From NCBI RefSeq assembly GCF_964340395.1, contig NC_135552.1, positions 19,959,181 through 20,023,180 on the forward strand: a stretch of 64,000 bases of DNA, written 5' to 3'. The translations under genes were made by a program, and so were the position numbers. This document shows, one piece after another, positions 1,753-64,000 of this stretch. The stretch comes from Glandiceps talaboti. Lineage: Eukaryota; Hemichordata; Enteropneusta; Spengelidae. The notes beneath the pieces are model-generated. The model saw only the letters and a program-made list of their open reading frames with translations. It made no database searches and had not been told where the DNA came from. Within the stretch, counting starts at the first letter, position 1; the number at the start of each line of letters is the position of its first letter.

Positions 1753-1795
1753 ATGGAAGGGAAGCTGTACATAGCTGTCATTCTGATTATCTCAG
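1753..1795 (+). CDS. exon 1: signal peptide start
   Basis: ATG at 1753, then MEGKLYIAVILIIS, a basic residue followed by a hydrophobic core. Ends in phase 1 before GTAAGT. Continues in exon 2 with GAVLFPVQS, giving a typical cleavable signal peptide. Paralogous to exon 1b at 16724. Confidence 0.85.
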
Positions 1796-9203: not shown

Positions 9204-9234
<31 letters not shown>

Positions 9235-9271
9235 GTACATACATACATACATACATACATACATACATACA

Positions 9272-9307
<36 letters not shown>

Positions 9308-9318
9308 TACGTACGTAC

Positions 9319-9349
<31 letters not shown>

Positions 9350-10521: not shown

Positions 10522-10607
<86 letters not shown>

Positions 10608-19700: not shown

Positions 19701-22700
19701 TGAATGAATTGAGGTAATATATCTTTGTATAATGTAATGGTAATATATGCATTATTATGTCAAATAAGCTAATTATGGTAACTGTATACACCATAGAGGT
19801 AGAATCTACATGTACCTCCATGACTATAGAACACTGCCTTTAATCTGTATATTCGATGTCATTTGTTCTCCATTGCTTGAGGGACACTAATCACAGCATA
19901 TAGTTAGTTACATGTACAAAGTATAGCATCAGTACCATTGTACCACAGACAAGTAACTTACTTGTCTGTGATTGTAAATGTGCAATATTGTTGGTTGCAG
20001 TATCAGTACATCTTTGTGATAGATGCATTCAGATATTGTTTCATATACTATGATAACCACTAAACCACCAATAACCTAAGTTTGAAATTATGATACATAC
20101 ATGTATGTTACATTTAAAGGCAGTCTATGGGGTTTTTAGGCCAGGTTTGCTAGTCCTATGCAGTAATGACAGACTGAGTGTATAGTAAACAGTAGCCATT
20201 CATCGAATGAGACATATTTGCTTCTGCTTCTGCTTGATAGTGTACAAAACACTTGAGGTTATCACACAAAGGTCAGTGTGGTACTGAAGTGATGTGATGA
20301 GTTTTCTTGATACTACCATCACCTCTGAAAACTCTTTTTCCTATGTTGTTGTGTATGTGGTGACCAGCATATCAATGTACACTTTGTCAATGCTGTCTGT
20401 CAATATTCATCTTCTTTTTTTGAGGCCGTCCATGATGGTCATAGCCTTCATCTTATTTGCGTGACCACATACTGCTCAAATACTTGTTACCTTTGAAACT
20501 TTTATTGCTGTCAACCTTTCACAATGACCATAAATGTTTCAATAAAAGAGAATTTTTCTCAATGCATTTAATAATTATACAGGAATTGACATTATTGTTT
20601 TGTTTGCAGTTTCTCCAACACCAGGCAGGAATACAGAATTGGAATGTGATTTTGAAGCTGGTGATACATGTAATTGGTACCAAGATCCAGGTGGTATAGG
20701 CTTGGAACAACTATGGGATGTAGAGCAAGGAAAGACTGGATTGACATCAAGATCTGGCCCACCAACCGATCATACCACTCAAACATCAGATGGTAAATAT
20801 TATGGGAGTACTAGTATAGCAAATTAAAATGTGTTTTTCTGTAAATAATGATTATTCTGACATATTAGATGACAATGTCATTCAAACTTAGAATAAAGGT
20901 GAGACTCTATAATAATTATCAGGTCATTAAAGCATAAATCATTAAGCATCATTTTCAACTTAGTGAATTTCTAATATAATAAATACATATTAGTAAGGGT
21001 GATCTTTTAAATTCTATGTTACTCAAAAATTGTTGATATACTGTCACTTTTGGTATGATGTATGAATTGTGAGTGAGACCTCTATCAGTTGTTAGACAAT
21101 CACATGATTCAATAAAAAAGATGATACAAAATAAAAAGATGCAAAAAATATGGCTTCTATCGCTCTCCTTTTCAGGGTGGTATCGTATGCCACTGTTCAC
21201 TAAGACCTACAACTGATAAACTTGAACCTTTCCAGAGGGGTAGACCTCATGTTTACATATCAACTAAGTTTGCAACTGTTCACTTTCCTTCTCAGAGTGG
21301 TATGCAGCTGCTCACTAAGACCTTCAACTCACACATGAACACTTGAACTTTTTCAAGGCAATATGCTTCTGTTTATATAACTTTGCAACTGGGTTTGATA
21401 TATTTCACTCTCCTTTTTAGGGTGGTATGCTGCGGTTCACTTGACCACACAACTGGTAAATGCTAAGACAACCCTTATCAGTACTGAACAGTCTCAGACA
21501 TTGTGTCTGTCATTCTGGTATCACATGAGTGGTAGTCTGGTAGGAGTACTTGAAGTCATTAAAGACACAGGTGGAATATGTAAGTAGTTTATCACATGAG
21601 TGGTAGTCTGGTAAGAACACTTGAAGTCATTAAAGACACAGGTGGACTTTATGAGGTCAGTGGTAGTCTGATAGGAACACTTGAAGTCATTAAAGATACA
21701 TGTGACGCTTGTCAGTATTCCCACTCTGTACAGAAAGTGAAACTGCTTCTATCTATCTACTAGAACAACAACTGGGGCAATAAAGTGTTGCCAGTTGAAT
21801 GATTTTCATTTTAATTCCTGAATTGCTATGTTAGAAGTACATGTACTGGAAAAGTAAATCACTTTTCATTTACTATCCTTGTGTGTTCTAGTGACTAGTA
21901 GTATACTAATTCTCCATGTATTGTTATTTTAGTACCCGGTGGAGATACTCTGTGGACAAGAACTGGAGATCAGGGTCACAATTGGATTTATGCCCAGGTC
22001 TTAGTAGAACATTCTGGTATTCAATCTTACCAACTACTTATAGAAACTACAGCATTTGCCAATAACATTGGTTATATTGCCATTGATGATATTGTAGCGT
22101 ACTATGAAGAATGTCCACCACTAGGTGAGTATTGTCATCTTTGGTCTTTAAGTTGTCTCTTTCAACAGCTGCACCCTTTAATAAGTTGTCATACAGTACC
22201 CTGGTACATTATTTTTGTTAAGGCTTGGGAACCTCTGTAACAGAAAGGGGGATGTCTTGTAAAACTGGTTATCTTTCCCATACATTATATGACCCTGGTA
22301 ATCGTGGCTTCGGTTTATTAAGATAGACACAAACCCAAACTATTGTTCTTCAATGTGGTAGATTAGCAAGTAGGTGATAACTGTTTCTCTGTTGAGCGAT
22401 TCTAATCAAGCTCTGATCAAGATAGTGTAAACATTGGAAGTCCCAAAACAGTACACTGCAAGTTAATGGAACCAGCTTTCTTAGAACCACCCTGCTGAGA
22501 CTATAATTAAACCAACATCCATTGAATAGCTTATCAATCTTGTATCAACATGTTGCGACAATTGTTTTAGTTTGTCAACTTTGTGTATGTCTTAGCAGTC
22601 TGAGGTCTTCGTAAACCGAAGCCTTGATTACCAGAGGAATACCATAGTTTTGTTTGGGAACTCTTAGTGCTAGAGTGACTAGGGACTTCAGTTAGACTTT

Positions 22701-25700
22701 ACCTTCTTACCACCCTTTATCAAAACACTGTCATAGTATAGTCATGGAGGGATAGATAGGTGTAGTCCTATTAAAATCCTAACTCTGATTGTCAGTGACT
22801 TAAAAGTTACATCTTTCATCAATATAATGCTGTTATGTAGAGATAGATGAGTACAGTCCAGTAAAATGTCAGCCTGAATGATAGAATATTATGGGGTAAA
22901 CATTTGTATAGTGCCATATATCTACAAATTTAGTGCTCATAGGGTCTTCACAGAATAAGAGGTGAACAAAATTTATAAAAGTACAGAAACACTAAAAGAA
23001 ATTTAGACTTGAAAATTGAATTGAAAGTTAAAATGAAAATGCCAGATGCTGAGATACTTTCTATAAAAGGACAATTCTGTAACATAGATGTAGCAACATA
23101 AATGTGTATAAATTGCAATGATTGTTGACAGTTGTTTGAAACCAATTTCACACAACTGTACATTGTATGTCATCTCTAAGTGGTCAAAGATGTCATACAA
23201 AAGCATTACCAACAGCTTTTGACTAAAACATCTAGTATTGTTCACTCACTGGGTGATTTTTAACTTTGCTGAGTTCTTAACTAAAACATCTAACATTGTT
23301 TACTCACTTCATGATTGTTAACATTACAGAGGAATGTGGGTTTGAGGAAACAGATTGGTGTGGTTTTGAGAATGACCCAATCCTTAACTTAGAATGGGAT
23401 AGAATTCAAGCTGTGGCTCATGCAGGTGGACCAGGTCAGGATCAGACATTACAAACTGACCAAGGTTAGTACAGCAGGTTATCAATTCATATCACCTGCA
23501 TAGTGACTGAAGAATTTCAGAGATTGGATGATAGCCATACAATCATTTGTCACAGAGTTGCTGTAGCCATGATGTTAGTGTTATCTAACATCAATAGAAC
23601 ATGTCTATTGAAGGAATACAAATACAAAATTGAAAGTGCTAACTTAAACTTCTCAATTTAATGAAAAGTGACAACTACCTTACTATGTCAATAAATTATG
23701 CTCACAAGTAGAATTGCTGTAATTACATGTATGTGTGTGTGCATGCATGCATGCATGCATGCATATGTGTGTGTGTGTTTGTTTGTGTGTAAAATTGTGC
23801 TGTGTCATGGGTTGTTTGTACCCTGGATGTAATCAGTGTGACAATATCAGTACAACTGTGATGCCATCATGATAATGAATGATAAGAAACATATACTGTA
23901 TTCAGAACACAATGACTCATTGTTACATGATAACTAGCATTAGCAATTGATACGTACCAAAACTCTGCTGGAATTTTAATTATTTCACACTTTGTAGTAC
24001 ACCACTCCCTCTAGGCAAAACAAAATACATTTTCTGACATAAATCGATCCTGTTGAGTTAGATGTAGATAAATAGTACAAACAAACAAACATCTGTTTGT
24101 CAACAAATTACTGAAGCTGAACTTGTAACATTGACACTATCACTCAAACATGGTCTCCATTCAAGAAAACAAATAAAAGTAGTTATACATACTCAGAAAG
24201 TACCGTTACTCACAAAATTTGAAAGCATATACAACTACACGTAAGACATACATTTGTAACTTACTTAGTGTCTTTGAAATATAGTACTCTGATTTCATAC
24301 AAATAGTTATTAATAAAGGTTATACTAGTCTGATAATTGTGATAATCTTTATAGAAGTCCAAATACAATTTTGGAAATTGGTTATTGTTGCCATTTTGCA
24401 ATATGCCCAAGTGTTCTAGTACCAAGGGAAAACCTACTGTGTTCAGTTCTGCAGAGTCAAACTAAATACAGACCCAGTTAATGAAATAAAACCCAGACTG
24501 CAGTGGTAAGAAGCAAATGAGCTAACAACCAACATTGATTTAGGCTATACCCATAACTCTCACCCAGGATAACACTAACGATTTTGTATTCAAATGTAAA
24601 CCTATATTACATGTATGATTTAAAATAGCAACATCTGAACCATAGCTCAGATACTTCTCATTCCATTGTGTGATGTAAATATAATTACCATATTCAGAGG
24701 TTCTAGTACATTATTCATATTGGTTGATGTTGACTATAGTCTCATTATGATTATTATCAAAACTCTTTGAAAAACTTTGGTTCACGATAACGTAACCACA
24801 AGGGCAAAATCTTTCATTACCTACTGCTATAATTACAGACGAACATAGCTGACAAAACATAGAGGCAACTCTGTATTCTCTGTATGGTGGAGCTCTTTAG
24901 TATCTTTTGTGACACTTTCACAATCAAGTTATTCAATTTATTTATTATATTTCTTCAGGTCATTACATGTATATTGATGCCTTAGGTCAACCTCAAGGTG
25001 AGGTTGCCAGACTATTGAGTCCCATGTACAAAGGTTCACAAGAAAAGTGTGTCAAGTTTTGGTACCATATATCAGGTAGGTGATCCTATTTGAAATAGTC
25101 TAATATTTAACTTGGAGTGTCACAAGAACTACTGTTTTGATACCATGCAATAAGTGGGTAATGCTATTTGAAACGAGGTTGGTTTTTAACCAGGAAAGAG
25201 GAATAGTTATTAAAATTCATGTCATTTATGAACAAATCTGCTCTTAGAGAACTTTCTTACCATTTATATTTGAACACTGTGGTTTTACGACAAAATACAA
25301 TATGGCCCATTGAATGAAGCGCTACTCGGAAAGTTGGACCGGAAGTTGTGGAGGTCGACTTTTTCACAATAGCACTGTGTAGGAGCTTGATAAGGTGGAT
25401 GATGTTATTTGAAATGTAGTCTGAAATTGAACTGAGAGAGTAACAAAAACCAACAAGTGTTGGTGTTAGTTAGACATGCCTCTATGATAAGGTCATATAT
25501 AAGGTCACACATGTTAGCAATTGTAAACGCCCTCACAGAAACATCCTGTATGTTCGATACTACTCATCTCCGGTATACAATATGTCAACCAAGTCCCCAA
25601 CCAAATAAATGTAGTAATGACAACATCAGTCTATCTTGAGTCACCCTTGTTCATCCAGGCCCAAGTGATAACACATCACAATATTAGAGTATTTTAAACA

Positions 25701-28700
25701 ATTCATCAATGCTATATTTAACATTTGATCTCTTCACTTTGTAGCCATAATGGTTTGCAAAATACCGCTGTATGTTTAACAGTTAGCTGTAAACTATTCC
25801 CATGTACATTTGTATAATATTATGAATATCAGTTGGCCAAGAACAAAACAAGACTAAATTGTTCACAATTGTATGAATGATCTTGAAGAATGATACTAGT
25901 ATTGTTTGTTTGGAGTCTACCTAGTACATTGTTTACTTGTTGCAATACATGCTCTGTGGAGATGTTGCAATGGTTTGTACTTGTTGCAGTATAGGATGTG
26001 CTATGTGGAGATGTTGCAATGTTTAGTACTTGTTGCAGTATAGGATGTGCTATGTGGAGATGTTGCAATGTTTTATACTTGTTGCTGTATAGGATGTGCT
26101 ATGTGGAGATGTTGCAATGTTTTGTACTTGGTGCAGTACATGCTCTGTGGAGATGTTGCAATGTTTTGTACTTGTTGCAGTATAGGATGTGCTATGTGGA
26201 GATGTTGCAATGTTTTGTACTTGTTGCAGTATAGGATGTGCTATGTGGAGATGTTGCAATGTTTTGTACTTGTTGAAGTATAGGATGTGCTATGTGGAGA
26301 TGTTGCAATGTTTTGTACTTGTTGCAGTATAGGATGTGCTATGTGGAGATGTTGCAATGTTTTGTACTTGTTGCAGTATAGGATGTGCTATGTGGAGATG
26401 CAATGTTTTGTACTTGTTGCAGTATAGGATGTGCTATGTGGAGATGTTGCAATGTTTTGTACTTGTTGCAATACATGCTATGTGGAGATGTTGCAATGTT
26501 TTGTACTTGTTGCAGTATAGGATGTGCTATGTGGAGATGTTGCAATGTTTTGTACTTGTTGAAGTATAGGATGTGCTATGTGGAGATGTTGCAATGTTTT
26601 GTACTTGGTGCAGTACATGCTCTGTGGAGATGTTGCAATGTTTTGTACTTGTTGCAGTATAGGATGTGCTATGTGGAGATGTTGCAATGTTTTGTACTTG
26701 TTGCAGTATAGGATGTGCTATGTGGAGATGTTGCAATGTTTTGTACTTGTTGAAGTATAGGATGTGCTATGTGGAGATGTTGCAATGTTTTGTACTTGTT
26801 GCAGTATAGGATGTGCTATGTGGAGATGTTGCAATGTTTTGTACTTGTTGAAGTATAGGATGTGCTATGTGGAGATGTTGCAATGTTTTGTACTTGTTGA
26901 AGTATAGGATGTGCTATGTGGAGATGTTGCAATGTTTTGTACTTGTTGCAGTATAGGATGTGCTATGTGGAGATGTTGCAATGTTTTGTACTTGTTGCAG
27001 TATAGGATGTGCTATGTGGAGATGTTGCAATGTTTTGTACTTGTTGCAGTAAAATACATGTGCTCTGGGAAGATGCAATGTTTTGTACTTGTTGCAGTAT
27101 TAGACGTGCTTAGGGAGGTGTTGCAATGTTTTTCAAGTCTGTGATTGGTACTTTGAGTTCTATACATCATGTGATCAACAGAGCTCACAATGTCTAGTTA
27201 GCCATAGAACAAAATGTACATTTTAAATCTAGTATTTGTTGTATATTGATTCACAACCAGATTTAATCATAGCATATTTAGTTCGCTTGAGAATTTCAAA
27301 TATTTGGCAATGTGCTCTGCAAATTGTTTTAACCAATTTCACACAACTGCAAATGCAAGAGCATAACTGAATGTTTGCTACTAGAAGAACCACTATCCAT
27401 AGTTCACTCCCTGCCACTAGATGGCGTAGTCGTAGCAGATTTGGACTGTACATGTATATGGCAATATATTTACACAACTTAATTGATTGTACCAACCTTG
27501 TACTATGCTCTCCTTAAAACTTAAAATCTCTCAGTGGTATTTCAAAATGCTACCCTTCTAATGAAGTCATGCAATTAATAATTGCAATACCATGACAAAG
27601 GGTCTACATGTATATGCTGATCTGACCATTGCAAACGTGAATTAAAAAAAAAAAATTGTCCAGTTCAAGAAATTTTTTGTCACTTGGAACATGACAAACA
27701 TAAATATGGCTACCGTCATATGGATTTACAGGAAATCATTGAATGTGAACCTTGCTAAAAATGGTTTCATCATAATATTTAGTACTTACTTTTTGAAAAC
27801 TCAAAATAAAAGCCATAATGTTAAATATATTGTGTTTTTATTGAAATTTTCTGTAGGTGGTGATGGAGCAATATTGAATGTGTACAACTTGGCGAGTGGT
27901 CAACAAACACCTGGAGATCTTGTCTATCAGACATCTCATAGTCAAAGCCGATTCTGGAATATTGGTGCAGCTGACTTTAATGCTGCCACAGATTTTCAGA
28001 TAGTGTATGAAGGCGTGATAGGTCAACAAGGTGTCTATGATATCTCCATTGATGATGTCAAAGTAGAAGATCATCCTTGTACTGGACTCAGAGGTGAGAA
28101 TAATTATAACTGAATAAATGCAGGAAGATGGATTTATTTTAAAGTGTATTTATGTCATTCAACAATGCACTTTGTCCCCAAACCTAAACTACCTTGGACA
28201 AGAGTTCCTGTATTAAACACTTCTCAACGGTAATTACTGCAGTGCATAATAAAAAAACAAACAGAAACATAAACTCTTACATGTATGTTATGGCACTGTC
28301 CTCTATGAATATGTAGTACTACATGCAACAAAAACATAAATCACTACATTTATCTTACCCACTCCTCCCACCAGAGGGCGCTAGAGCTGTAGCACATTAT
28401 TTTTACCAAGAATTCAAACATTATTGTATACTTCTAATGCTTCTAAAATGTCATAACAGCTAACTTAATGTGATTCCACTTGCAAAATCTTGAATATAGT
28501 GAAAACTTTGCCAAATAACCCAATGAATTGAAACCTCTTTTTCCATTTCTTGCACATCTTCCAGCTACATGTGACTTTGAGTTTGACATGTGCACCTGGA
28601 CAAATGTTAAAGACGATGAATTTGATTGGTTGAGGTTTAGTGGAAGTTCAGCTCTGTTATTTGGAATTAGTGGTCCTACATTTGATCACACTACTGGAAC

Positions 28701-56404: not shown

Positions 56405-56462
<58 letters not shown>

Positions 56463-59400
56463 GAAGACAAAGTATAAACTAATATTTTGTTTTGATCATT
56501 GTAGAAATAAAGGAGCAATGTGATATAGATGAAATTCAATGTGACCGTGGAAGCTGTGTACAACAGTATCAGATTTGTGATGGAACAGATGATTGTGGTG
56601 ATGCATCAGATGAATCCCCTGAAGCTTGTGGTATGTAACCTGACATGTATCCTGAGGCTCTTAGTACACATGACTTTGCCCAGGTGTTTCACTCATGTAA
56701 CATTTTTTACACACACTCGGACAACTTCTAATGCAAAAGAAACAATAATACATAGGTGCTATGCACAGGTGGGATGTAGAAGTAATCAAGTTGAAATGTT
56801 GATTATCAGTTAGAAAATAAACAATTGAAGCCTTTAAAATCATCAAGTCCATAAGAAGCCTATGTTTACTGCATTGTGAAAGAATAGCAATGCTTATTAC
56901 TTTTCAATGTGATTGGGCAAAGGATCCTGCTGTGTGTAGTATCTTTGTTATTGTTAGTTTAGAGTTGAAGTTTGTTTATCTTTGTGTCAAAAACGTAATG
57001 TCCCTTGAATGAAACACCAAGCCTACGTCATTTCTACTGTAATAATTTGAAATACTGAATCTCTTAGATTACTAAAACTGATATAGACTTAATGTGTGCC
57101 TTGTTTCATCTATATAATGTAGCAGTAATGACAATTGCTACTTACACATTACTGTCATTGCTGTCAAAATTATTGGTGAATCTTTGTTCAATATTTCAAA
57201 TTTTTATATGCTAATATTATACTTTAACAGTGTGATTATTTTTATGCCTGTCTGATGTGTTGAATCATTGACTACACATACATGCATATTTCGTCAAAAC
57301 ATTACAACATGATATTTATTAAACTGTGAATAATGAATGATATACAGTTATCTATGACAGTGACATCTGGACTACATTTCATTTTGTAGATGGGTATTCT
57401 GGATGTTTCTTTGAGAACCTTTCTGTCAATGATGGATGGTGTGAACTACAACGTATCTATTATAATGCTAATCCACCTCAACCAGACTCACACTTGGCAA
57501 CATTTGATTGGTGGTTAGAGAATGGAGAACAAGGATTGATTGGTTCATTTACTGGGCCAGGACGTGATCATACAACGGGTACTGCCATTGGTCATTATGT
57601 GTATGCAGACAGTCGTATTCCACGCAGAGCTGGAGATGTGGCATTGTTTAGGAGTCAAAATTATGTACCTGTAACCAATACAGACTGCCATGTAAGTTTT
57701 ATGTTGGCCATCAATTCTTTCAGTGCAAACAAATCTATAATTTGACTATCTTTGTCAGTTTGTTGTATGAAGTATAATCCTGCATATGACAATGCAAGTG
57801 GGAAAATTTTCACAACCTGTTTCAAGTTCATCTGGCAGGGCTCCGTTTGATACAGAAACCATAAGAAAGTGCACATTCTACACTAAGGTAGCAAGATCAC
57901 GATTTGTTACTACATTTTGTCTGTCATGAAATAAACCATTTAAATGTACTGCAACTAGATGCAGATATGCAGGTGCTACTGTTTTGACGACATCTACATG
58001 TGATGTCTTCATGATAGCATGTTAGTTCATTTCATTTGGCCAAGAAACTGTATTCATTTGAATCTTGCTATCTTAAAGTGTAGCATGTGCAGTTTCTTAT
58101 TGGTTTCTGCATGGTTCCATCAAATGAATGGTACCTTGAAACAGTCCACTGTAAAATAACTAAATATCATACATGTCTTTGTAAAACAAATTTAACCTCT
58201 TCTGACACTATATCAGCACACAGTCTATTATTACTATGATGTTAAGTTTATTAGTCCTCAGTGAGTGTCCATGTTCAATCCAGGATGTACAAGTGTCAGT
58301 TTGAGTAAAAAAAGACAAGGTGTGACAAAACTCATATGTCATTAGTATTTTCTGGCTGAACAAAGAAAGTTGTTTATAGAGAATACTGTAATTAAATCTG
58401 CACAAGCTCCATTTCGAATGATTTGACCCGGACTTTGAACACTGCAGAACCTCGCATGTACGGTGTAGATGCCAAGGCATTTGTGATGACATTGAACAAT
58501 GAGAAAAAAAACCTTGAGGGATGGCCCTCACTGGACTTCCTGGGAGACTTAAAGAACTGTCCAGTAAAAATAAGGATTATTATTATTGATGTATTTTCTG
58601 TTTAAAAACTACAATGAGTTGCTTGTGGTATAATTTACTGTACATTTGCACTTTCCAAAGTTTATACATGTAATATTCAGACACTTGTTGACAAATACTT
58701 CATGACTTTTTCTGTCATTAGTTGAGATTCTATTATCATATGATGGGACAAGCTATGGGAACATTAAACATCTATGTACGTACTTATGAAGGTACTATAG
58801 ATGAAAATGACCTTGTATGGACTAGAAGTGGTAACCATGGTGATATGTGGATCAGAGAGGAAATTGTGATTGACCAGGCATCAGAAAATTGGCAGGTAAG
58901 TCAAGAGATGTAATAACTGTGTAATGTAGTATCGTGTCTTATAGCTCAAAGTATATGTAGCATAAATCATAAGTTTTGATGAGATGTTGCTATGTCAACA
59001 CTTGATTGCTAGTTCGATGAGATATCACTATCTCAGCAATAGAATTTGCTATATTTTTACATGGTGTTACTTAGCAATAGGTCCTGTATGGGTATGGTAT
59101 ATCAGATAGCTGAGAGTACATATACTGATATCATAAATTGTTGATTTTAATTTTTGGCATCAAAATCATCCAACAAACTAGACTTTAATAGTATAAATTG
59201 TAAATTCTTACAGGAAAAAAAGAATGCCTGCTTTCCAATGTTGTTTTGATGGGAAGTCTGTCAATTTTTCTTTATATTTGATATCTAGATCCTATTTGAG
59301 GCTATTGTTGGATCTGGTCTCAGAGGATACATTGCCCTTGATGACATCACATTTACACCTGACTGTGTGGTAACCACTGATCAACTACCAGTATATATAG

Positions 59401-60140
59401 CACCAACACCCACACCAACTCCATGTGATCCAGACTTCTACTGTGACAATGGTGTCTGTGTGGATATGTCCAAAGTTTGTGATTTCTATGATGACTGTGG
59501 AGACAACTCAGATGAAGCAGTCTGTGGTATGTATTCTTTACATGTCAACTTTTATAGAGAAATTCTCAGCTTCAAAACATTTATTTGTCATCAAAAACTG
59601 TGGCTCATTTTCAACTTCATCTAAAACTTCATCTTTTGAAATAGGTACATGTGACTTTGAAGATGGCCAGTGTGGTTGGTTTGATAACAGCAATGGTATC
59701 TACAGATGGGAACACTTCCAAGCTGGAAGCTCAGGCTCTATTTATGCCCCAATCACTGATGCAGCTGGTAGAGATGAAGGTAAGATAGCTCAGAGTCTGT
59801 TTATACTGCAGTCACTGATGCAGCTGGTAGAGATGAAGGTAGGATAGATCAGAGTCTATTTATGCTGCAGTCACCGATATGATGCAGTTGGTAGAGATGA
59901 AGGTAGGATAGTTTGAGTCGATATATAGCCGTCACTGATGAAACAATTATGTAGTAGGTGCCTTGCACAGTTGGGATATAGAAGCAGAAAAGTAATCACA
60001 TTCCTTTGATACTAGTTTGAAAGTATACAATAATGGAAGCCATGAAATATATGTGAAGTCATTTACGTAGACCTTACTACTGTACTGCAAAAGAGTAGAA
60101 ATGTTTATCTCTTTTCAATGTGATTAGGTAAAGGATTGTG

Positions 60141-60235
<95 letters not shown>

Positions 60236-63200
60236 ATTGTTAGTTTTGGGTCAGAATGTGTCTTTTTTATGTAAAAATATCATGTTAAGACTGTTTCTGC
60301 TGTATACATTTGTATATGTTGACTTAAGGTCGAGCAAGAAACAAAGCCATATAGATCTCTTCTCATTGTAGTAGTACTTGTACCAAATTTGATATCATAA
60401 TAAATGAAATAGCTCTTCGTACATGAAAATTGCTATATTTCTGGTTATATGTTAATCCTATATCTTTGCCATGTCTGTAGGTCACTACATGTTGGTAGAG
60501 AGTGGAAATTCTCTTTTCTATCTGGGTGCATTCTTGGAATCTCCAGTACTTGGAGCTATGGGTTCTGCCTGTGAGATGGATTTCTGGTATCATTTACATG
60601 GAGACGATACTGGATCCATATTTGTGTATCTACAAAATGCAACAACGTTTCAAGATCTTGCCTTGTTATTTACTGTGACTGGTGATCAAGGCAATCAATG
60701 GCACAAAGCTAGGATAATGCTAGGCGGACACAGTGCAGGTTACAGGGTTAGTATATAATATAATGCTAGGCGGACACAGTGCAGGTTTAATACAGGGTTG
60801 GTATATTGCATAATGCTAGGTGGTTACAGTCAGTCTTGTTCACTCCATGATAGATGGTGCTGCTTATGATCACCTCACAAAGTGTAGACAGTTTAGCAAG
60901 TTCAAAATACAGTTCACATGTCAGTGACAGCCACACATTTCCTCATACACATCAATTTTTCTAATAATTACGGTTTTTAAATTAAATTTGTGAAAATAAA
61001 TCTTGATAAATTTCAGATTGATATTGAGTCATACCCTGCACTTGGTACTATTACTGGTGATGCCAATGATGCTGCAATAGATGAGATTGAATTTATCAAC
61101 TGTCACCCAGGGGATATTCCACCTCATGCTTACGGTAGCGTACATGACTCTTCTTGTCTGTATTGAACCACTCCATTGTTTAGCATTGTAACCTGTTCTT
61201 CTGTTGTCAAAATGAAAACCTCAATACCTGTAAATCTTCACTGCTATTCATCAATTTTTACCCTCAGAAAACTACATGTACATGTACACTAATATTTACC
61301 CTTATATATGTGTGATAATAATCTTTACAGCATGGATATGGGTTTTGCAGACCAAAGTTGTATGGCAGAAAGGCCTGACTTTATTCAAGATGTCATGGTT
61401 TTATCATGTACCCTCTGTAGCATTACACTGGCACTGTGACAGAAACATGATTTGAATCACATTTAATCTCATAAATTGGTAATGATATATTATGTAAATG
61501 TGTAAACACATAGAGATACTGAGACAACAATCAAAGCCACATCACTGAGCAAACAGGTATATGATAAAGTCCATTAGATTTCAATGTCAATTTGTATTGT
61601 ATTCTGCTCTACTACAGAATTGACATGTGATTTTGAAGATGGTTGGTGTGGATGGATGCAGGCTCCAGCTTCAACAGATGAATTTGACTGGTATCTAGGT
61701 CCAGCTGGTGTTGCATCAGTAGAAACTGGTCCAGGTTATGATCACACAAACTTTGATGGTAGGTTCATCACAAAGTTTGTAGACTTCTGTGATGTATCAT
61801 TTTCATAATTTTGACAAACAATGTGATTCAGTTATGAAACTCGCATGTATTACTTTAATTGTATTTGTAATATTGAGTAATTCAAAAAGGCAGATTATTT
61901 CTGGAAATGTCTTACACTTTTGAATTTACTTTTAATTATAGGTTCATACATCTTCATCAATACATCTGAAGCCAATGAAGGACAGACAGCCAGACTAACC
62001 ACCTACCCACAAACTGATACCAGTGGTGAAGATTATTGTGTTAAGTTTTGGTATCACATGTATGGTCCACAAATCTACAGACTGAATATGTACACACAAC
62101 GTTTAGGATTTCCAGAACTGATGAGATGGACAAGATTCTATGACCAAGGAAATATGTGGAGAGAAGCACATAGAACATTTAACTTTGAGGGACAGTGGCA
62201 GGTAATAGGAAGAATTGCACTATTAAGTCAAATGAAGAAAAGACCAATCTTTCTGTAAATGGATTCTATTAAAGTACCTGTACTAACATTTACCAAGAGA
62301 TAGTGGCCAATACAATCTAGATTTTTGATATATTTTAGTTTTCTCCAAATAATTATTTGATAATACATCATGGGAATATTGCCTTTTGTGAAGCACATCA
62401 GCAAAACATTAACAACAGATAAACAACATTATACCCATTTTGGGCCTTCCTACTTCATGTGTGGTTGATCATTTCAATAACATATTTTAATGAGTACAAC
62501 ATCAAACTTTACATAAATCTACATAATATAGATTATAGCGAATATAGAGAAGAACGTCCTTTGTTGGTTAGGCACTTCAAATTGTTGTACAACTCATTTT
62601 CAAATGCATAACTAGCTTAACAAAAAGTATCTGAGTTTAACAATTTATCAAATCTCCTTCAGATTCACTTTGAAGCTGTTATGGGTCATCCTAATGGTGG
62701 AACTGTTGCCATTGACGATATTGAAGTCACTGAAGGAGAATGTGATAGAGAGCAAGGTAATCTTTAAATTCCCCCTCTTGCCCCACCCCACCCCTGTTAA
62801 CTATTGAATGTACTACATCTAAGACCATGATATATGCTGTATACAAATGTAGATAGTAAATGAATCATCATCAATGTATGATATACTTCCTAGATACTAG
62901 AGGCAGAATGCTAGGTGTATTTTTGAGTTTGAAATAGAGAATGATGGAAAATTCTGCTCTTCCTTGATTATGTACATTCCTTACACTTCAAACTTCAGAG
63001 GATAATGGATGAAGACAGCAGGTCTGATAGTAATAGTCATTATGAAAACTTTGTCAGGATACAGTACATGATACCTGAGTCTGTAATTCTGTAAACTAAA
63101 CTACCTGTAATTCTGTCAACTAAATTTAATATTACAATTCAAGCTATCTTTAACTGTCTGTACTCTGGTCTCTCAGTATCATGTCAACTTTGTTGATATT

Positions 63201-64000
63201 TTCTCATGGATTGTCTATCTATTATTTTGTTTTTTTGATAGTTGAGTGTGACTTTGAGATTGATTTCTGTTACTGGACACAAGAAGAGGACGATGATTTT
63301 GACTGGTGGCGTGGTAGTGATGGATCACCCTCTAGGGGTACAGGACCAGAATATGATCACACCACAGGCACAGCTGATGGTCAGTAAAAATGAATGAAGT
63401 TTATAGATCCCAGTGGACATACTGTCAGATTTGAAGTGGTGATGGGGGCTGAGTGTGCTTTTCAAAAAGAAATTGAGGGGTCAATCATTAACTATTTGAA
63501 TTGTGTAATGCATTCAGACAGATTCATTTACGGGCAGAAAAAGATGGAATTCATTTTTAGCATAAGTGACCATAACTTCCCTAATGTAACAGAGCTGGTA
63601 AACAGTAAATTGAAACAGGCTGTGAGTCAAGGACTAAATTAAATATATATGTCACTTTAAAAGACAGAACAAGAGCAATTATTGGTATTAAAACTCTAAA
63701 ACTTTGTGATACCACAGCAAACTATAAATGTAGTCTGTTCTTACAGTATGATTATAGATTTCAGTATAGCCACTTTGATGTCTTATTTTCCATTGGCAAC
63801 ATTTATCAAGTAATATAGGATGAATATGTGGAAGTCTTATTTCCAATTTTGTAGGAACATTTGCCTTCATTGAGACGTCATCCATCCTACCAATCCCGGG
63901 AAGAGAGGGTGAGAAAGCTATCATAGACAGTATGGTTATACCAGGTGGTAGTACTGACTGCTTTCAATTCTGGTATCACATGTATGGTGTAGATATTGGT
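16724..64000 (+). CDS. unit B: giant MAM/LDLa protein, exons 1b and 11-66, incomplete at the right edge (MALRD1-like)
   Basis: Signal-peptide exon 1b followed by 56 exons from 20610, all joining in frame (9255 coding nt, about 3085 residues so far). Domain order: MAM3, MAM4, MAM5, LDLa4, MAM6, LDLa5, MAM7, LDLa6, MAM8, MAM9, MAM10, MAM11, then the same order again: MAM12, MAM13, MAM14, LDLa7, MAM15, LDLa8, MAM16, LDLa9, MAM17, MAM18, MAM19 (cut by the window end). Exons 11-40 (1631 codons) and exons 41 onward are two copies of one superblock. No EGF domain, membrane segment or stop is present in the window, so whether the protein is anchored is unknown. Family knowledge: vertebrate MALRD1 is an extracellular multi-MAM/LDLa protein; function here is not inferable. 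Introns and exons are CpG-poor, which would fit germline gene-body methylation. Exon 10 could instead splice to exon 11, making exon 1b an alternative promoter. Confidence 0.85.
16767..20609. other. long first intron of unit B
   Basis: No MAM or LDLa exon. Holds a CpG-richer stretch at 18.1-19.2 kb, an open frame at 18816-19061 with an internal GTAGGC, and hairpins with GGAAGT arms (18511-18530, 19624-19648). CpG drops sharply after about 19.2 kb. Confidence 0.5.
18511..18530. repeat. short palindrome with GGAAGT/ACTTCC arms
   Basis: CATGGAAGT and ACTTCCATG separated by 2 nt. A related hairpin (ATGGAAGTAT..ATACTTCCAT) is at about 19624-19648, with further CATGGAGG and CCTCCATG motifs to 19826. 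GGAAGT is also an ETS-factor core. Confidence 0.6.
20610..20792 (+). CDS. exon 11: linker and MAM3 N-terminal part
   Basis: Pro/Thr linker VSPTPGRN, then [15 protein letters not shown] and [12 protein letters not shown]. Phase 1 to 1, donor GTAAAT. First exon of superblock 1; partner exon 41 also opens with a Pro-rich linker. Confidence 0.87.
21421..21579 (+). CDS. exon 12: MAM3 second part
   Basis: [27 protein letters not shown]. 159 nt, phase 1 to 1, donor GTAAGT. Partner exon 42. Confidence 0.85.
21588..21715 (+). repeat. two tandem copies of the exon 12 3' part
   Basis: The stretch ATCACATGAGTGGTAGTCTGG..GAAGTCATTAAAGACACAGGTGGA of exon 12 recurs at about 21591-21655 and 21656-21715. 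Neither copy keeps a clean GTAAGT donor. Confidence 0.85.
21933..22124 (+). CDS. exon 13: MAM3 C-terminal part
   Basis: [35 protein letters not shown]. 192 nt, phase 1 to 1, donor GTGAGT. Partner exon 43, which also ends CPPL. Confidence 0.88.
23330..23464 (+). CDS. exon 14: MAM4 N-terminal part
   Basis: [33 protein letters not shown]. 135 nt, phase 1 to 1, donor GTTAGT. Partner exon 44. Confidence 0.85.
24959..25075 (+). CDS. exon 15: MAM4 second part
   Basis: [22 protein letters not shown] and [10 protein letters not shown]. 117 nt, exactly as partner exon 45. Phase 1 to 1, donor GTAGGT. Confidence 0.9.
25932..27130. repeat. 49-bp minisatellite, about 24 copies
   Basis: Unit roughly GGATGTGCTATGTGGAGATG.. 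followed by TTGCAATGTTTTGTACTTGTTGCAGTATA, with a few shortened units. It lies in intron 15. Because 49 is not a multiple of 3, it makes overlapping open frames on both strands that are artefacts. Every unit contains the acceptor-like TTGTACTTGTTGCAG. Confidence 0.95.
27414..27428 (+). promoter_or_regulatory. CTCF-like motif (imperfect)
   Basis: CCACTAGATGGCGTA agrees with the CTCF core CCASYAGRKGGCRSY at 13 of 15 positions. About 950 bp before the perfect match at 28368. Confidence 0.4.
27857..28093 (+). CDS. exon 16: MAM4 C-terminal part
   Basis: [50 protein letters not shown]. 237 nt, phase 1 to 1, donor GTGAGA. Partner exon 46 (231 nt). Confidence 0.88.
28368..28382 (+). promoter_or_regulatory. 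CTCF consensus motif (perfect core)
   Basis: CCACCAGAGGGCGCT matches CCASYAGRKGGCRSY at all 15 positions, in an otherwise CpG-poor intron. Occupancy cannot be judged from sequence. Confidence 0.5.
28565..28708 (+). CDS. exon 17: MAM5 N-terminal part
   Basis: [22 protein letters not shown] and [10 protein letters not shown]. 144 nt, phase 1 to 1, donor GTAAGA. Partner exon 47. Confidence 0.9.
29006..29151 (+). CDS. exon 18: MAM5 second part
   Basis: [29 protein letters not shown]. 146 nt, phase 1 to 0, donor GTAAGG. Partner exon 48 has the same phases. Confidence 0.87.
29314..29660 (+). mobile_element. interspersed repeat family R1, copy 2
   Basis: Same orientation and similar along its length to 12523-12858, sitting in intron 18 of unit B. 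Small indels distinguish the copies. No terminal inverted repeats or coding frame were recognised. Confidence 0.8.
29690..29915. repeat. degenerate repeat of TAGCCAGGGTCTACC-like units
   Basis: Imperfect short units (TTTAGCCAG, AGCCAGGGTCTACCCAGGG, GGCCTACCCAGGGCTTAC) recur about eight times before exon 19. Confidence 0.55.
29957..30073 (+). CDS. exon 19: MAM5 third part
   Basis: [29 protein letters not shown]. 117 nt, phase 0 to 0, donor GTAAGT. Partner exon 49. Confidence 0.87.
30331..30640 (+). mobile_element. tRNA-derived SINE, copy in intron 19
   Basis: Head with GAGTGGTTAGAATTGTTGGC and a degenerate box B. The body (CAGCTGTATAATTGGGGACCTGGTAGGACAG) is shared with 49030-49350. Tail GGGGTAATAATTG resembles a LINE-type 3' tail. 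Confidence 0.65.
30774..30972 (+). CDS. exon 20: MAM5 C-terminal part and LDLa4
   Basis: [20 protein letters not shown], Pro linker, then an LDLa ending [10 protein letters not shown]. It has only four Cys: C1 and C3, normally disulfide-bonded to each other, are both missing. Phase 0 to 1. Partner exon 50 lacks the same pair. Confidence 0.87.
31058..31600. repeat. (GGTACA)n hexanucleotide array with ATATAG tail
   Basis: About 430 bp of GTACAG units interrupted by GTGCAG and CATGTA variants in a higher-order pattern, then about 100 bp of AGATATAAAT units. All frames stay open through it, giving long false open frames on both strands. Confidence 0.95.
32106..32243 (+). CDS. exon 21: MAM6 N-terminal part
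   Basis: [33 protein letters not shown]. 138 nt, phase 1 to 1, donor GTAAAG. DHT is replaced by DCD, adding a cysteine. Partner exon 51 ([10 protein letters not shown]). Confidence 0.87.
32910..33035 (+). CDS. exon 22: MAM6 second part
   Basis: [24 protein letters not shown]. 126 nt, identical in length and phase (1 to 1) to exon 52, which reads [11 protein letters not shown]. Donor GTAAGA. Confidence 0.9.
33519..33649 (+). CDS. exon 23: MAM6 third part
   Basis: [32 protein letters not shown]. 131 nt, phase 1 to 0, donor GTAAGA. Partner exon 53 is also 131 nt. Confidence 0.9.
33650..33778 (+). repeat. 41-bp tandem copies of the exon 23 3' edge with donor
   Basis: The 41-bp stretch from GTAAGATAGTGATAG to GATTGGCAG repeats about three times, giving extra TGGCAG|GTAAGA donors at 33690-33691 and 33731-33732. 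Use of a later donor would add 41 nt and an immediate in-frame TAG. Confidence 0.9.
33795..33972. repeat. (GT)n/(ATGT)n microsatellite
   Basis: Mixed GTGT, GCAT and ATGT repeats after the exon 23 duplicates. Confidence 0.9.
34148..34232 (+). CDS. exon 24: MAM6 C-terminal part
   Basis: [26 protein letters not shown]. 85 nt, phase 0 to 1, donor GTAAGA. Partner exon 54 is also 85 nt. Confidence 0.9.
34546..34668 (+). CDS. exon 25: LDLa5
   Basis: Single-exon LDLa with six Cys: [21 protein letters not shown] and [12 protein letters not shown]. Phase 1 to 1, donor GTAAGT. Partner exon 55 shares QCDRGSCV. Confidence 0.9.
35079..35332 (+). CDS. exon 26: MAM7 N-terminal half
   Basis: [45 protein letters not shown]. 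254 nt, phase 1 to 0, donor GTAGGC. The usual phase-1 intron between the first two MAM pieces is absent, also in partner exon 56. Confidence 0.9.
35375..35670 (+). mobile_element. LINE reverse-transcriptase C-terminal remnant
   Basis: A decayed frame containing [16 protein letters not shown] and [18 protein letters not shown], then a stop at 35661-35663. This pattern is typical of the tail downstream of the reverse transcriptase domain in non-LTR elements of the CR1/L2/RTE kind. It is a short, frame-broken fragment in intron 26. Confidence 0.75.
35927..36091 (+). CDS. exon 27: MAM7 third part
   Basis: [34 protein letters not shown]. 165 nt, phase 0 to 0, donor GTTTGT. Partner exon 57 (LRFYYHMMG); exon 9 has the same length. 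Confidence 0.9.
36136..36229 (+). repeat. decayed copy of the exon 27 3' edge
   Basis: GACTGCTTTGTTATAAGGTCATGCTAGAAATAAAAGAGACAGA parallels the exon sequence for [24 protein letters not shown] recurs at its end, with an inserted stretch. Stops show it is not used. Confidence 0.7.
36868..37108 (+). CDS. exon 28: MAM7 C-terminal part and LDLa6
   Basis: [26 protein letters not shown], Pro/Thr linker, then a six-Cys LDLa ([19 protein letters not shown]). Phase 0 to 1, donor GTAAGT. Partner exon 58. Confidence 0.9.
37592..37726 (+). CDS. exon 29: MAM8 N-terminal part
   Basis: [32 protein letters not shown]. 135 nt, phase 1 to 1, donor GTCAGT. Partner exon 59 is 135 nt with FQAGSS and AAGRDEG. 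Confidence 0.9.
37924..38189 (+). CDS. exon 30: MAM8 middle part
   Basis: [42 protein letters not shown]. 266 nt, phase 1 to 0, donor GTAAGT. Partner exon 60 is also 266 nt and shares FYLGAFLE and FVYLQ. Confidence 0.92.
39063..39180 (+). CDS. exon 31: MAM8 C-terminal part
   Basis: [33 protein letters not shown]. 118 nt, phase 0 to 1, donor GTACTT (weak). Partner exon 61 is 118 nt with [12 protein letters not shown]. Confidence 0.88.
39836..39994 (+). CDS. exon 32: MAM9 N-terminal part
   Basis: [43 protein letters not shown]. 159 nt, phase 1 to 1, donor GTGACT (weak). Partner exon 62. Confidence 0.82.
40456..40709 (+). CDS. exon 33: MAM9 middle part
   Basis: [55 protein letters not shown]. 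254 nt, phase 1 to 0, donor GTACAT. Partner exon 63 (QRLGFPE). Confidence 0.9.
41029..41119 (+). CDS. exon 34: MAM9 C-terminal part
   Basis: [30 protein letters not shown]. 91 nt, phase 0 to 1, donor GTATGT. Partner exon 64. Confidence 0.88.
41757..41888 (+). CDS. exon 35: MAM10 N-terminal part
   Basis: [36 protein letters not shown]. 132 nt, phase 1 to 1, donor GTACTG. Partner exon 65. Confidence 0.9.
42656..42856 (+). CDS. exon 36: MAM10 middle part
   Basis: [38 protein letters not shown]. 201 nt, phase 1 to 1, donor GTAAGA. Partner exon 66, cut by the window end. Confidence 0.9.
42978..43831 (+). repeat. tandem array of the exon 37 acceptor and 5' part (nine extra copies)
   Basis: Copies of CTGAACAGGGTAATATCTGG.. 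start at 42978, 43073, 43166, 43259, 43357, 43450, 43548, 43641 and 43739; the tenth (43832) is the functional exon. Spacings are 95, 93, 93, 98, 93, 98, 93, 98, 93, so the last copies form a 191-bp dimer repeat. Each copy has a TAG acceptor (TGTATAG or TATGTAG), an in-frame exon-like start, and then a TGA or TAA stop in TTTTATTGA or GATATAATATAA. No copy has a proper donor after its exon-like part. Confidence 0.95.
43832..43984 (+). CDS. exon 37: MAM10 C-terminal part
   Basis: [20 protein letters not shown], then [24 protein letters not shown]. 153 nt, phase 1 to 1, donor GTGCTG (weak). The acceptor is the last of ten tandem copies, chosen because only this copy reads on into QIVIEAS. Confidence 0.85.
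44693..44833 (+). CDS. exon 38: MAM11 N-terminal part
   Basis: [34 protein letters not shown]. 141 nt, phase 1 to 1, donor GTAGAT. Confidence 0.9.
45107..45885. repeat. 29-bp minisatellite, about 26 copies
   Basis: Unit close to CTGAACTGTACATTGTAACA plus GATTCCCCT. Some units are lengthened (CTGAAGTTCTGAACTGTACATTGGCCT), forming longer-period blocks. It lies in intron 38. The long minus-strand open frames here are artefacts. Confidence 0.95.
45951..46076 (+). CDS. exon 39: MAM11 second part
   Basis: [34 protein letters not shown]. 126 nt, phase 1 to 1, donor GTAAGT. Confidence 0.9.
46563..46787 (+). CDS. exon 40: MAM11 C-terminal half
   Basis: [59 protein letters not shown]. 225 nt, phase 1 to 1, donor GTATGT. 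Last exon of superblock 1. Confidence 0.9.
47295..47501 (+). CDS. exon 41: linker and MAM12 N-terminal part
   Basis: Pro/Thr-rich linker ([12 protein letters not shown]), then [39 protein letters not shown]. 207 nt, phase 1 to 1. First exon of superblock 2. Confidence 0.9.
47891..48082 (+). CDS. exon 42: MAM12 second part
   Basis: [32 protein letters not shown]. 192 nt, phase 1 to 1, donor GTAAGT. Acceptor AAAG has a poor pyrimidine tract. Confidence 0.85.
48691..48762 (+). repeat. decayed copy of exon 43 upstream of the exon
   Basis: TATCTGG..GAACACAAAGTCATTGGTGATGGTATGACCAGGTTCACTTGGATGAAAATAAC parallels the exon 43 start (GTCTGGATCC..AAGGTCATGAATGG..GTTCACCTTGATGAAAAC). It is followed by (AACAT)n and the true acceptor. 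Confidence 0.7.
48811..48987 (+). CDS. exon 43: MAM12 C-terminal part
   Basis: [48 protein letters not shown]. 177 nt, phase 1 to 1, donor GTGAGT. Confidence 0.9.
   Translation: MMLSGSVMEPKVMNGSMAKFTLMKTMKSVMSSKPMLVNYFKVTLHLMILKYLMEIVHL
49030..49350 (+). mobile_element. tRNA-derived SINE, copy in intron 43
   Basis: Box-A-like GAATGGTTAGAGTGGCTGGC, box-B-like GCTCAATCCTAG, body CAGCTGTATAATTGTGGAACTGGTAGGATAG shared with 30331-30640, tail GGGTAATCATTGTAAAATGC. Confidence 0.7.
49540..49686 (+). CDS. exon 44: MAM13 N-terminal part
   Basis: [39 protein letters not shown]. 147 nt, phase 1 to 1, donor GTAAAT. Confidence 0.9.
50185..50301 (+). CDS. exon 45: MAM13 second part
   Basis: [35 protein letters not shown]. 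117 nt as in exon 15, which also has ARLLSPMY; in exon 15 this is VARLLSPMY. Phase 1 to 1, donor GTAAAT. Confidence 0.92.
50489..50719 (+). CDS. exon 46: MAM13 C-terminal half
   Basis: [54 protein letters not shown]. 231 nt, phase 1 to 1, donor GTAAGT. Confidence 0.9.
51052..51204 (+). CDS. exon 47: MAM14 N-terminal part
   Basis: [39 protein letters not shown]. 153 nt, phase 1 to 1, donor GTAAGC. Confidence 0.9.
51630..51769 (+). CDS. exon 48: MAM14 second part
   Basis: [37 protein letters not shown]. 140 nt, phase 1 to 0, donor GTCAGT. Confidence 0.88.
52415..52546 (+). CDS. exon 49: MAM14 third part
   Basis: [37 protein letters not shown]. 132 nt, phase 0 to 0, donor GTAAGT. Confidence 0.88.
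53081..53282 (+). CDS. exon 50: MAM14 C-terminal part and LDLa7
   Basis: [25 protein letters not shown], Pro linker ([10 protein letters not shown]), then a four-Cys LDLa ending [11 protein letters not shown]1 and C3 are missing, as in LDLa4. Phase 0 to 1, donor GTAAGA. Confidence 0.9.
53678..53818 (+). CDS. exon 51: MAM15 N-terminal part
   Basis: [39 protein letters not shown]. 141 nt, phase 1 to 1, donor GTGAGT. Confidence 0.9.
53848..53949 (+). repeat. recent partial copy of exon 51 in the following intron
   Basis: GATCTAAGTCGTGATACAGTG.. through ACTAGGGGAGATGAG repeats about 100 bases of exon 51 with few changes, 30 bases after its donor. The copy has no usable donor (GAGTTGCCC). Confidence 0.92.
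54301..54426 (+). CDS. exon 52: MAM15 second part
   Basis: [34 protein letters not shown]. 126 nt, phase 1 to 1, donor GTAAGA. Confidence 0.92.
54998..55128 (+). CDS. exon 53: MAM15 third part
   Basis: [35 protein letters not shown]. 131 nt, phase 1 to 0, donor GTGAGA. Confidence 0.9.
55580..55664 (+). CDS. exon 54: MAM15 C-terminal part
   Basis: [28 protein letters not shown]. 85 nt, phase 0 to 1, donor GTTAGT. Confidence 0.9.
55685..55820 (+). repeat. decayed copies of exon 54 and its donor
   Basis: TTTGTCAAAAGCCAGGTTAGTAT at about 55690 repeats the exon end and donor. 55760-55820 (TGTATGGTGATATAGCTACTGATGATGTATGATAA..) is a decayed second copy of the exon body with a premature stop. Confidence 0.75.
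56406..56461. repeat. (AC)n dinucleotide repeat
   Basis: About 28 AC units, 44 bases before the exon 55 acceptor. Confidence 0.97.
56505..56630 (+). CDS. exon 55: LDLa8
   Basis: Single-exon LDLa with six Cys: [22 protein letters not shown] and [12 protein letters not shown]. Phase 1 to 1, donor GTATGT. Confidence 0.9.
57390..57691 (+). CDS. exon 56: MAM16 N-terminal half
   Basis: [19 protein letters not shown], an insertion rich in Asn/Pro, then [30 protein letters not shown]. 302 nt, phase 1 to 0, donor GTAAGT. 48 nt longer than partner exon 26. Confidence 0.9.
58722..58895 (+). CDS. exon 57: MAM16 third part
   Basis: [41 protein letters not shown]. 174 nt, phase 0 to 0, donor GTAAGT. Confidence 0.9.
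59289..59526 (+). CDS. exon 58: MAM16 C-terminal part and LDLa9
   Basis: [26 protein letters not shown], Pro/Thr linker, then a six-Cys LDLa ([26 protein letters not shown]). Phase 0 to 1, donor GTATGT. Confidence 0.92.
59645..59779 (+). CDS. exon 59: MAM17 N-terminal part
   Basis: [38 protein letters not shown]. 135 nt, phase 1 to 1, donor GTAAGA. Confidence 0.92.
59780..59945 (+). repeat. tandem copies of the exon 59 3' edge with donor, including a possible microexon
   Basis: Two further copies of TATTTATG..GATGCAGCTGGTAGAGATGAAG|GTAGGA follow the exon, plus a fragment. In the first copy CTGCAG forms an acceptor, so 59812-59838 (27 nt, phase 1 to 1, VTDAAGRDE) could be included as an in-frame microexon. 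The second copy has a 5-nt insertion that breaks the frame. Confidence 0.85.
60142..60233. repeat. (GT)n dinucleotide repeat
   Basis: About 46 uninterrupted GT units in intron 59, potentially Z-DNA forming and probably polymorphic. Confidence 0.97.
60481..60746 (+). CDS. exon 60: MAM17 middle part
   Basis: [57 protein letters not shown]. 266 nt, phase 1 to 0, donor GTTAGT. Confidence 0.92.
60747..60835 (+). repeat. tandem copies of the exon 60 3' edge
   Basis: ATAATGCTAGGCGGACACAGTGCAGGTT..ACAGGGTTGGTAT repeats the exon end and donor at about 60757-60800. A shorter, more diverged copy (ATAATGCTAGGTGGTTACAG) follows. Confidence 0.85.
61017..61134 (+). CDS. exon 61: MAM17 C-terminal part
   Basis: [33 protein letters not shown]. 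118 nt, phase 0 to 1, donor GTAGCG (weak). Confidence 0.9.
61618..61758 (+). CDS. exon 62: MAM18 N-terminal part
   Basis: [33 protein letters not shown]. 141 nt, phase 1 to 1, donor GTAGGT. Confidence 0.9.
61942..62201 (+). CDS. exon 63: MAM18 middle part
   Basis: [61 protein letters not shown]. 260 nt, phase 1 to 0, donor GTAATA. Confidence 0.92.
62663..62756 (+). CDS. exon 64: MAM18 C-terminal part
   Basis: [27 protein letters not shown]. 94 nt, phase 0 to 1, donor GTAATC. Confidence 0.9.
63242..63379 (+). CDS. exon 65: MAM19 N-terminal part
   Basis: [40 protein letters not shown]. 138 nt, phase 1 to 1, donor GTCAGT. Confidence 0.92.
63855..64000 (+). CDS. exon 66: MAM19 middle part, cut by the window end
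   Basis: [26 protein letters not shown], still open at base 64000. Partner exon 36 ([23 protein letters not shown]) predicts about 55 more bases, then an exon like 37. Confidence 0.9.

Follow-up and report, generated by a model that had tools for sequence, protein, structure and literature searches.

A nine-MAM, three-LDLa block repeated four times in a giant predicted gene of Glandiceps talaboti and present in neighbouring genes

Can one tandem duplication account for a gene in which thirty consecutive exons are followed by what appear to be the same exons in the same order? The question is raised by a 64,000-nt stretch from the hemichordate Glandiceps talaboti (C5:19959181-20023180 of a 590-Mb genome in 47 contigs; hereafter the window), which is filled by one long multi-exon gene on the plus strand, the first half of a giant gene. 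The original prediction, made from the letters of the window, held that exons 11-40 encode nine MAM and three LDLa domains, that exons 41-66 repeat them, and that a single large tandem duplication had followed the formation of the nine-MAM array. We find four such blocks in the assembly, in a common register, of very unequal ages and related to blocks in adjoining genes. The nine-MAM block is an old unit, present whole or in part in five genes of one cluster, that was copied several times and later homogenised.

The gene was rebuilt with a purpose-written exon-chain predictor, whose scores for splice sites and codons were trained on the window itself, together with reading of the sequence; its exons are predictions that combine homology with splice signals and frame, and a number of borders were placed manually. 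The window model comprises 65 exons, with every junction in phase, GT-AG at all internal borders and zero stops. Fifty-nine of these curated exons are identical to the first prediction and 61 recur identically in a second, MAM-profile-aided prediction. Six exons were set by hand (11, 12, 22, 39, 48 and 51), five of which the second prediction also gave; two B-type exons missed by the predictor were read by eye (21421-21579 and 45951-46076) and four borders were moved by hand. Two exons of the first prediction (11975-12145 and 38500-38520) were left out of the counts, and the in-window pieces of the second prediction that were left out lie mostly inside minisatellites. Exon 37 measures 186 nt in the curated model and 153 nt in the second prediction. 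Exon numbers agree with those of the original prediction once the signal-peptide-like exon is taken as exon 1 (Table 1).

All 19 MAM domains of the window matched PF00629 at E ≤0.001 (MAM1 with 96.9 bits against a cut-off of 26.4). The nine LDLa domains all matched PF00057, eight of them above its curated cut-off of 24.1 bits and LDLa3, at 14.3 bits, under it. Six LDLa domains have six cysteines, LDLa3 has seven, and LDLa4 (exon 20) and LDLa7 (exon 50) have four. Cysteines 1 and 3 of an LDLa domain form a bonded pair, and these are the two absent from both LDLa4 and LDLa7, which depart from the six-cysteine, three-bond pattern and still exceed the PF00057 cut-off. A search for relic MAM exons in the 9.6-kb intron 11002-20610 returned no match better than E 2.6, and strong MAM-exon matches outside the gene model in the window were exon-edge minisatellite copies only.

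Sixteen stretches adjoining the window were read for the continuation of the gene. An exon like exon 37, followed by a MAM like MAM11, had been forecast just past the window end, and both were present (64434-64586 and 65213-66673, window numbering): MAM19 is completed by a CD exon, a MAM of the MAM11 place comes next, and two more full blocks follow. The predicted gene has 169 exons and 9,048 aa, or 9,037 if exon 37 takes its shorter form, running from 1753 to a stop at 131154; across these predicted exons the frame is open, with a single stop and with phases and GT-AG borders that join. By exon classes the whole protein contains 46 MAM domains, and by profile 23 LDLa domains, with one further weak LDLa-like exon. 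Blocks start at exons 11, 41, 72 and 103 (residues 483, 2125, 3806 and 5490), and the commonest 5-mer spacings in the predicted protein are 1,680 and 3,365 aa. Blocks 2, 3 and 4 span 19.4, 15.8 and 19.1 kb; exon lengths are equal at 30/31 positions between blocks 2 and 3 and at 28/31 between blocks 3 and 4, with phases agreeing at 31/31 in both comparisons. In the C-terminal fifth, eight MAM alternate with eight to nine LDLa in a MALRD1-like arrangement; visual inspection places a transmembrane-like helix after them, followed by a tail of ~50 residues that closes the protein. Beyond 63.9 kb the second prediction was followed except for 23 pieces: thirteen within the gene were omitted as short or doubtful, nine lay past the stop, and the last exon was lengthened to reach the stop.

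Table 1 Predicted parts of the giant gene, in window numbering
Feature	Position	Strand	Remark
Exon 1: start codon and hydrophobic, signal-peptide-like N-terminus MEGKLYIAVILIIS, donor phase 1	1753..1795	+	by reading
Exons 2-10: LDLa1, LDLa2, MAM1 with LDLa3, MAM2, preceding the blocks	2895..11002	+	
Block 1, MAM3: exons 11-13, Pro-containing linker first	20610..22124	+	exon 11 start may be 20583
Block 1, MAM4: exons 14-16	23330..28093	+	
Block 1, MAM5 and four-Cys LDLa4: exons 17-20	28565..30972	+	
Block 1, MAM6 (exons 21-24) and LDLa5 (exon 25)	32106..34668	+	
Block 1, MAM7 with fused first exon 26, and LDLa6: exons 26-28	35079..37108	+	
Block 1, MAM8: exons 29-31	37592..39180	+	
Block 1, MAM9: exons 32-34	39836..41119	+	
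Block 1, MAM10: exons 35-37	41757..44017	+	exon 37 end may be 43984 (153 nt, like blocks 2-4)
Block 1, MAM11: exons 38-40, C and D parts in a single exon	44693..46787	+	
Block 2, MAM12: exons 41-43, Pro-rich linker first	47295..48987	+	
Block 2, MAM13: exons 44-46	49540..50719	+	
Block 2, MAM14 and four-Cys LDLa7: exons 47-50	51052..53282	+	
Block 2, MAM15 (exons 51-54) and LDLa8 (exon 55)	53678..56630	+	
Block 2, MAM16 with fused first exon 56, and LDLa9: exons 56-58	57390..59526	+	
Block 2, MAM17: exons 59-61	59645..61134	+	
Block 2, MAM18: exons 62-64	61618..62756	+	
Block 2, MAM19, cut at window end	63242..64000	+	continues to 64586
Beyond window: MAM20	65213-66673	+	
Beyond window: block 3	67374-83151	+	
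Beyond window: block 4	83719-102811	+	
Beyond window: C-terminal MAM39-46 with LDLa	103246-128525	+	
Beyond window: transmembrane-like exon	129369-129465	+	stop at 131154

Several exon edges of the gene carry minisatellites. One of these (42950-43892) consists of ten copies of a 93-bp unit comprising the acceptor and start of exon 37, the last unit being the real acceptor and start. Other tandem copies of exon borders lie at 21160-21704, 33614-33797, 53848-53951, 59728-59940 and 60714-60820 (exons 12, 23, 51, 59 and 60). They resemble the 'mirage' minisatellites of amphioxus in spanning the exon-intron border; the amphioxus repeats, in the portion of the source available to us, are described as often carrying splice signals (PMC3087553). 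The copy after exon 51 stands at the same 133-bp offset in blocks 2, 3 and 4 and so probably predates their duplication. Its versions in blocks 3 and 4 (72697-72780 and 90898-90981, window numbering), which are among the pieces left out of the gene model, are open, of phase 1-1 and bordered by AG and GT, and by these signals could be extra exons; the block 2 version is without a GT donor. Two introns contain a dispersed repeat (12524-12866 and 29313-29663, 78% identical) that is out of block register, and a TACAGG repeat (31059-31493) lies directly 3' of exon 20. The longest listed open frame (31134-31721), considered as a gene, overlaps the TACAGG repeat and was rejected as repeat.

Within the window, the common order of exons 11-40 and 41-66 holds. 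A shift of 30 gives matching exon classes at 26/26 positions and matching phases at 25/25, the best class score at other shifts (20-29 and 31-44) being 14/29; the classes were assigned with the gene model in view. Mapped intron positions, which are independent of the class assignment, have the same phase and lie ≤3 alignment columns apart in 7/7 complete pairs from 3/12 to 9/18, and disagree for MAM1/10 and MAM2/11. The rule that exon n corresponds to exon n+30 is right through exon 40 and breaks down after it: the block 2 counterpart of exon 40 is two exons, so that later exons are shifted by 31. The seven exon pairs listed as equal in length are all correct, with both members of each exact in the second prediction, and equal lengths occur in 7/25 register pairs versus 2/72 same-class pairs out of register. 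The quirks said to be common to both blocks, namely the fused exons 26/56, the Pro-rich linkers 11/41 and the four-Cys LDLa 20/50, are likewise present.

The predicted period of about 1630 residues and about 26.7 kb agrees with the distance from block 1 to block 2 (1,642 aa and 26,685 bp). An off-diagonal was expected in a self-comparison of the protein, and 50 of the 126 5-mers common to the two blocks are spaced 1,640-1,699 residues apart; when open frames were compared with one another, the best partners of many exons lay ~22-26 kb away. The DNA of blocks 1 and 2 yielded short exon matches only and no usable alignment, and the blocks were therefore compared as proteins. Mean MAM identity is 42.4% at an offset of nine (10 pairs) and 28.9-36.6% at offsets 1-8 and 10-17, and among 40,320 pairings of MAM3-10 with MAM12-19 the true register alone reaches the observed mean identity.

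Phylogenetic trees were expected to join each MAMk with MAMk+9. This was so for 8/8 pairs in a 19-row tree (bootstrap 57-100) and for only 4/7 pairs in an 18-row tree; a free tree under a simpler model placed 7/8 pairs nine apart as sisters. Pair 3/12 is an exception, with 34% identity and no mutual best match. In the AU test, the topology pairing domains nine apart was not rejected (p-AU 0.54), while registers of 8 (2e-10) and 10 (4e-10) were. Domain arrays, as is generally known, often grow one domain at a time, and two nine-MAM arrays might be supposed to have arisen by separate single-MAM duplications; we regard this as extremely improbable, as the test rejects both a topology of two separate arrays (7e-6) and one in which neighbouring MAMs are closest (9e-59), the case that the original prediction had set against itself, and as intron positions agree in all seven complete pairs. 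MAM2 was considered as a partner of MAM11 (not rejected, p-AU 0.24) and set aside, since its intron positions differ and a wider tree groups it with MAM40. A period of nine MAM and three LDLa, formed before the block was duplicated, is supported.

The blocks are far from equal in age. Blocks 1 and 2 are near saturation (dS 1.9, dN 0.55), whereas blocks 2 and 3 have a dS of 0.078 and a dN of 0.010, values which indicate that the copies were kept working. Among blocks 2-4, dS is 0-0.22 at places 3-8, numbered after the MAM domains of block 1, and at the intervening LDLa (seven of ten units compared). Between blocks 3 and 4, dS is 0.05-0.15 at MAM places 3-8 and then 1.6 at place 9, 0.35 (a mosaic) at place 10 and 1.8 at place 11; MAM36 and MAM38, which hold places 9 and 11 of block 4, differ from their counterparts by a dS of 1.4-2.1. 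The recent places 3-8 against the old MAM36 and MAM38 imply at least three block-level events of very unequal ages, and with four blocks present the claim of a single large tandem duplication does not stand. For block 4, conversion of places 3-8 could have taken the place of a shifted duplication.

Exons that are 97.6% identical (blocks 2 and 3) or 92.9% identical (blocks 3 and 4) might also be expected if blocks 2-4 were uncollapsed haplotypes or a mis-resolved repeat. We consider such an assembly artefact very unlikely: where the DNA of these blocks aligns its identity is no more than 84-86%, gaps and stretches that fail to align are numerous, the block lengths given above differ, and one N-terminus and one C-terminus are joined by a frame that continues across the blocks. 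Between blocks 2 and 3, moreover, flanking introns are less alike than fourfold sites (86.6% versus 94.2% identity), which argues against haplotype duplicates.

Place 10 of block 4 contains a patch of exon size that departs from the old age of its surroundings. In its first exon, MAM37 equals MAM28 at 16/16 fourfold sites, with 99% identity, and its second exon is 95% identical to block 3. Exons on either side of the patch are 73-83% identical with few fourfold sites equal (9/17, 9/22, 5/12 and 5/14 in block exons 22-24 and 27), and the introns flanking the first exon, at 72% and 61%, match no better than an unrelated-intron control run with the same aligner (72.9%). This is the pattern that exon-limited gene conversion would leave.

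Related blocks are also found outside the gene. A minus-strand gene at 19.925-19.949 Mb contains one complete block, places 3 to 11, with the same exon classes and the four-Cys LDLa, and with one intron absent (384 = 266 + 118). On the plus strand, a gene at 19.897-19.917 Mb contains places 5 to 11; no further block places were seen in the 18 kb preceding it. An inverted, near-identical pair at ~19.750-19.788 and 19.803-19.847 Mb contains places 6 to 11 and the last place-5 exon, and continues into more MAM and LDLa. This pair (C5:19749181-19789180 and 19799181-19849180) is a large inverted duplication, its opposite-strand genes having 92% protein identity over the compared places. The block occurs four times in the assembled giant gene, once complete on the opposite strand, and partial or embedded in three more genes.

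The whole genome was searched with two exons as queries, from places 8 and 7 (E ≤1e-8). The place-8 exon had 11 matches, eight of them in the five cluster genes (four in the window gene) and three weaker ones (38-40%) at 20.98-21.20 Mb; the place-7 exon had seven, four in the window gene and three in its neighbours, with no match at this threshold in the 19.897 Mb gene. Viral contigs scanned with one MAM gave one weak locus. Elsewhere in the assembly, contig C40 carries COX1 three times at an exact spacing of 15,435 bp, with 13 in-frame TGA that fit a mitochondrial code, and seems to be a mitochondrial genome assembled as a triple copy.

Comparison with these neighbours changes the interpretation of block 1. 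In a concatenated block tree, in which long branches meet, block 1 falls with the blocks at 19.897 and 19.925 Mb (support 100/99), and forcing the gene's own four blocks to be monophyletic costs 29.4 log units and is rejected (p-AU 0.0002). A quick 51-row MAM tree, in which one row is short and branches carry no support values other than SH-aLRT, groups the domains by place for all nine places (SH-aLRT 47-99). At 9/9 places, two of them resting on a single neighbour row, the 19.897 and 19.925 Mb neighbours lie closer to block 1 than to block 2. The split between blocks 1 and 2 thus predates the neighbours' blocks and is not private to the giant gene. At the MAM11 place, the intron between the C and D parts divides the blocks in agreement with the trees: it is absent from block 1 and both of these neighbours, while blocks 2-4 have it, as do the two genes at 19.75-19.85 Mb. 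The latter two genes group with block 2 at three of six places, outside all blocks at two and with the block 1 group at one, and because their placement varies, their assignment to the type of blocks 2-4 is unsure.

One thirty-exon tandem duplication inside the window gene agrees with the register in order, phase and quirks and with the topology of pairs nine apart, which the AU test retained. Set against it are the two further blocks downstream and the failure of the four blocks to form a clade once neighbours are added, to which all nine places agree. We judge it an unlikely explanation of the pattern; it is refuted as the whole story and survives only as the first split between block types, if that split was intragenic.

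Our preferred reading, to which we give a probability of roughly 0.85, is that the giant gene encodes a signal peptide, an LDLa-LDLa-MAM-LDLa-MAM stretch, four nine-MAM, three-LDLa super-repeats, a MALRD1-like run and a transmembrane helix, and that its blocks descend from two types. A nine-MAM block would have formed first and then split into two types: X, comprising block 1 and the genes at 19.897-19.917 and 19.925-19.949 Mb, and Y, comprising blocks 2-4. An ancient duplication of Y would have left its old end as MAM36-38, and recent unequal exchanges of nine-MAM length would then have produced block 2, block 3 and the leading part of block 4. A phase-1 intron bounds each block at either end, so that an exchange between corresponding introns leaves the frame intact. 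Finally, gene conversion, held to exons by the divergence of the introns, may have transferred sequence between the beginnings of MAM28 and MAM37, in one direction or the other.

How X and Y came to lie in one gene admits a second course, in which block 1 and blocks 2-4 derive from two neighbouring genes joined head to tail. It would fit the presence of X-type blocks in separate adjoining genes, one on the opposite strand, and a split between blocks 1 and 2 that is older than the split among X blocks. The array is also flanked by related pieces, MAM1 grouping with MAM39 and MAM2 with MAM40 in the 51-row tree, where MAM39 and MAM40 come after block 4. One ancestral X+Y gene that later shed X copies, however, explains the same tree, and we consider a fusion possible and rather doubtful.

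The domains, the signal-peptide-like start and the transmembrane-like helix are consistent with a long cell-surface rod for adhesion or ligand binding, in which the block may be the functional unit. We put at about even odds the view that the block behaves as a heritable 'super-domain' in a titin-like system of extracellular adhesion modules, being copied and kept uniform as a whole, with conversion acting on exons only. If so, copy number would be free to vary between individuals or species.

Among known proteins, MALRD1 likewise has many MAM domains interspersed with LDLa. In the portion of the source available, Diet1 (MALRD1) has nine MAM and nine LDLa (PMC8804323), to which the C-terminal fifth here is close with its eight MAM and eight to nine LDLa; unlike Diet1, the present gene has 46 MAM and 23-24 LDLa in all, and four super-repeats with few LDLa. 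No title or abstract on a nine-MAM super-repeat was found in the open-licence library searched. The juxtaposition of young copies (dS near 0.08), old copies with saturated dS and an exon-sized patch of identity within old sequence makes the interplay of unequal exchange and gene conversion directly testable in relatives.

In organisation, the closest likeness discussed here is to titin (connectin), whose super-repeats, as the accessible parts of two papers describe them, comprise 7 and 11 domains in the A-band and 6 and 10 Ig domains in the middle-Ig region, with same-place domains of different units most alike, most clearly in the central units (PMC10665226, PMC12241362). Titin as described there and the present gene have in common a tandem multi-domain unit, a greatest likeness between same-place domains, which here too are closer across units than neighbours are, and the recursive duplication of units (PMC10665226, PMC12241362). 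Titin is a muscle protein of Ig and Fn3 domains, whereas the protein here is a predicted membrane protein of MAM and LDLa domains, and we claim a likeness of organisation and not homology. The passages on titin make no mention of neighbour genes that carry a single unit. The gene adds a case to those in which giant proteins have grown by entire multi-exon blocks, and its unusual feature is that the super-repeat unit is also present as one complete block in an adjoining gene. Block growth was already known from titin; here the block also stands outside the giant gene, so that a single gene cluster can reveal in which order and direction copies were made.
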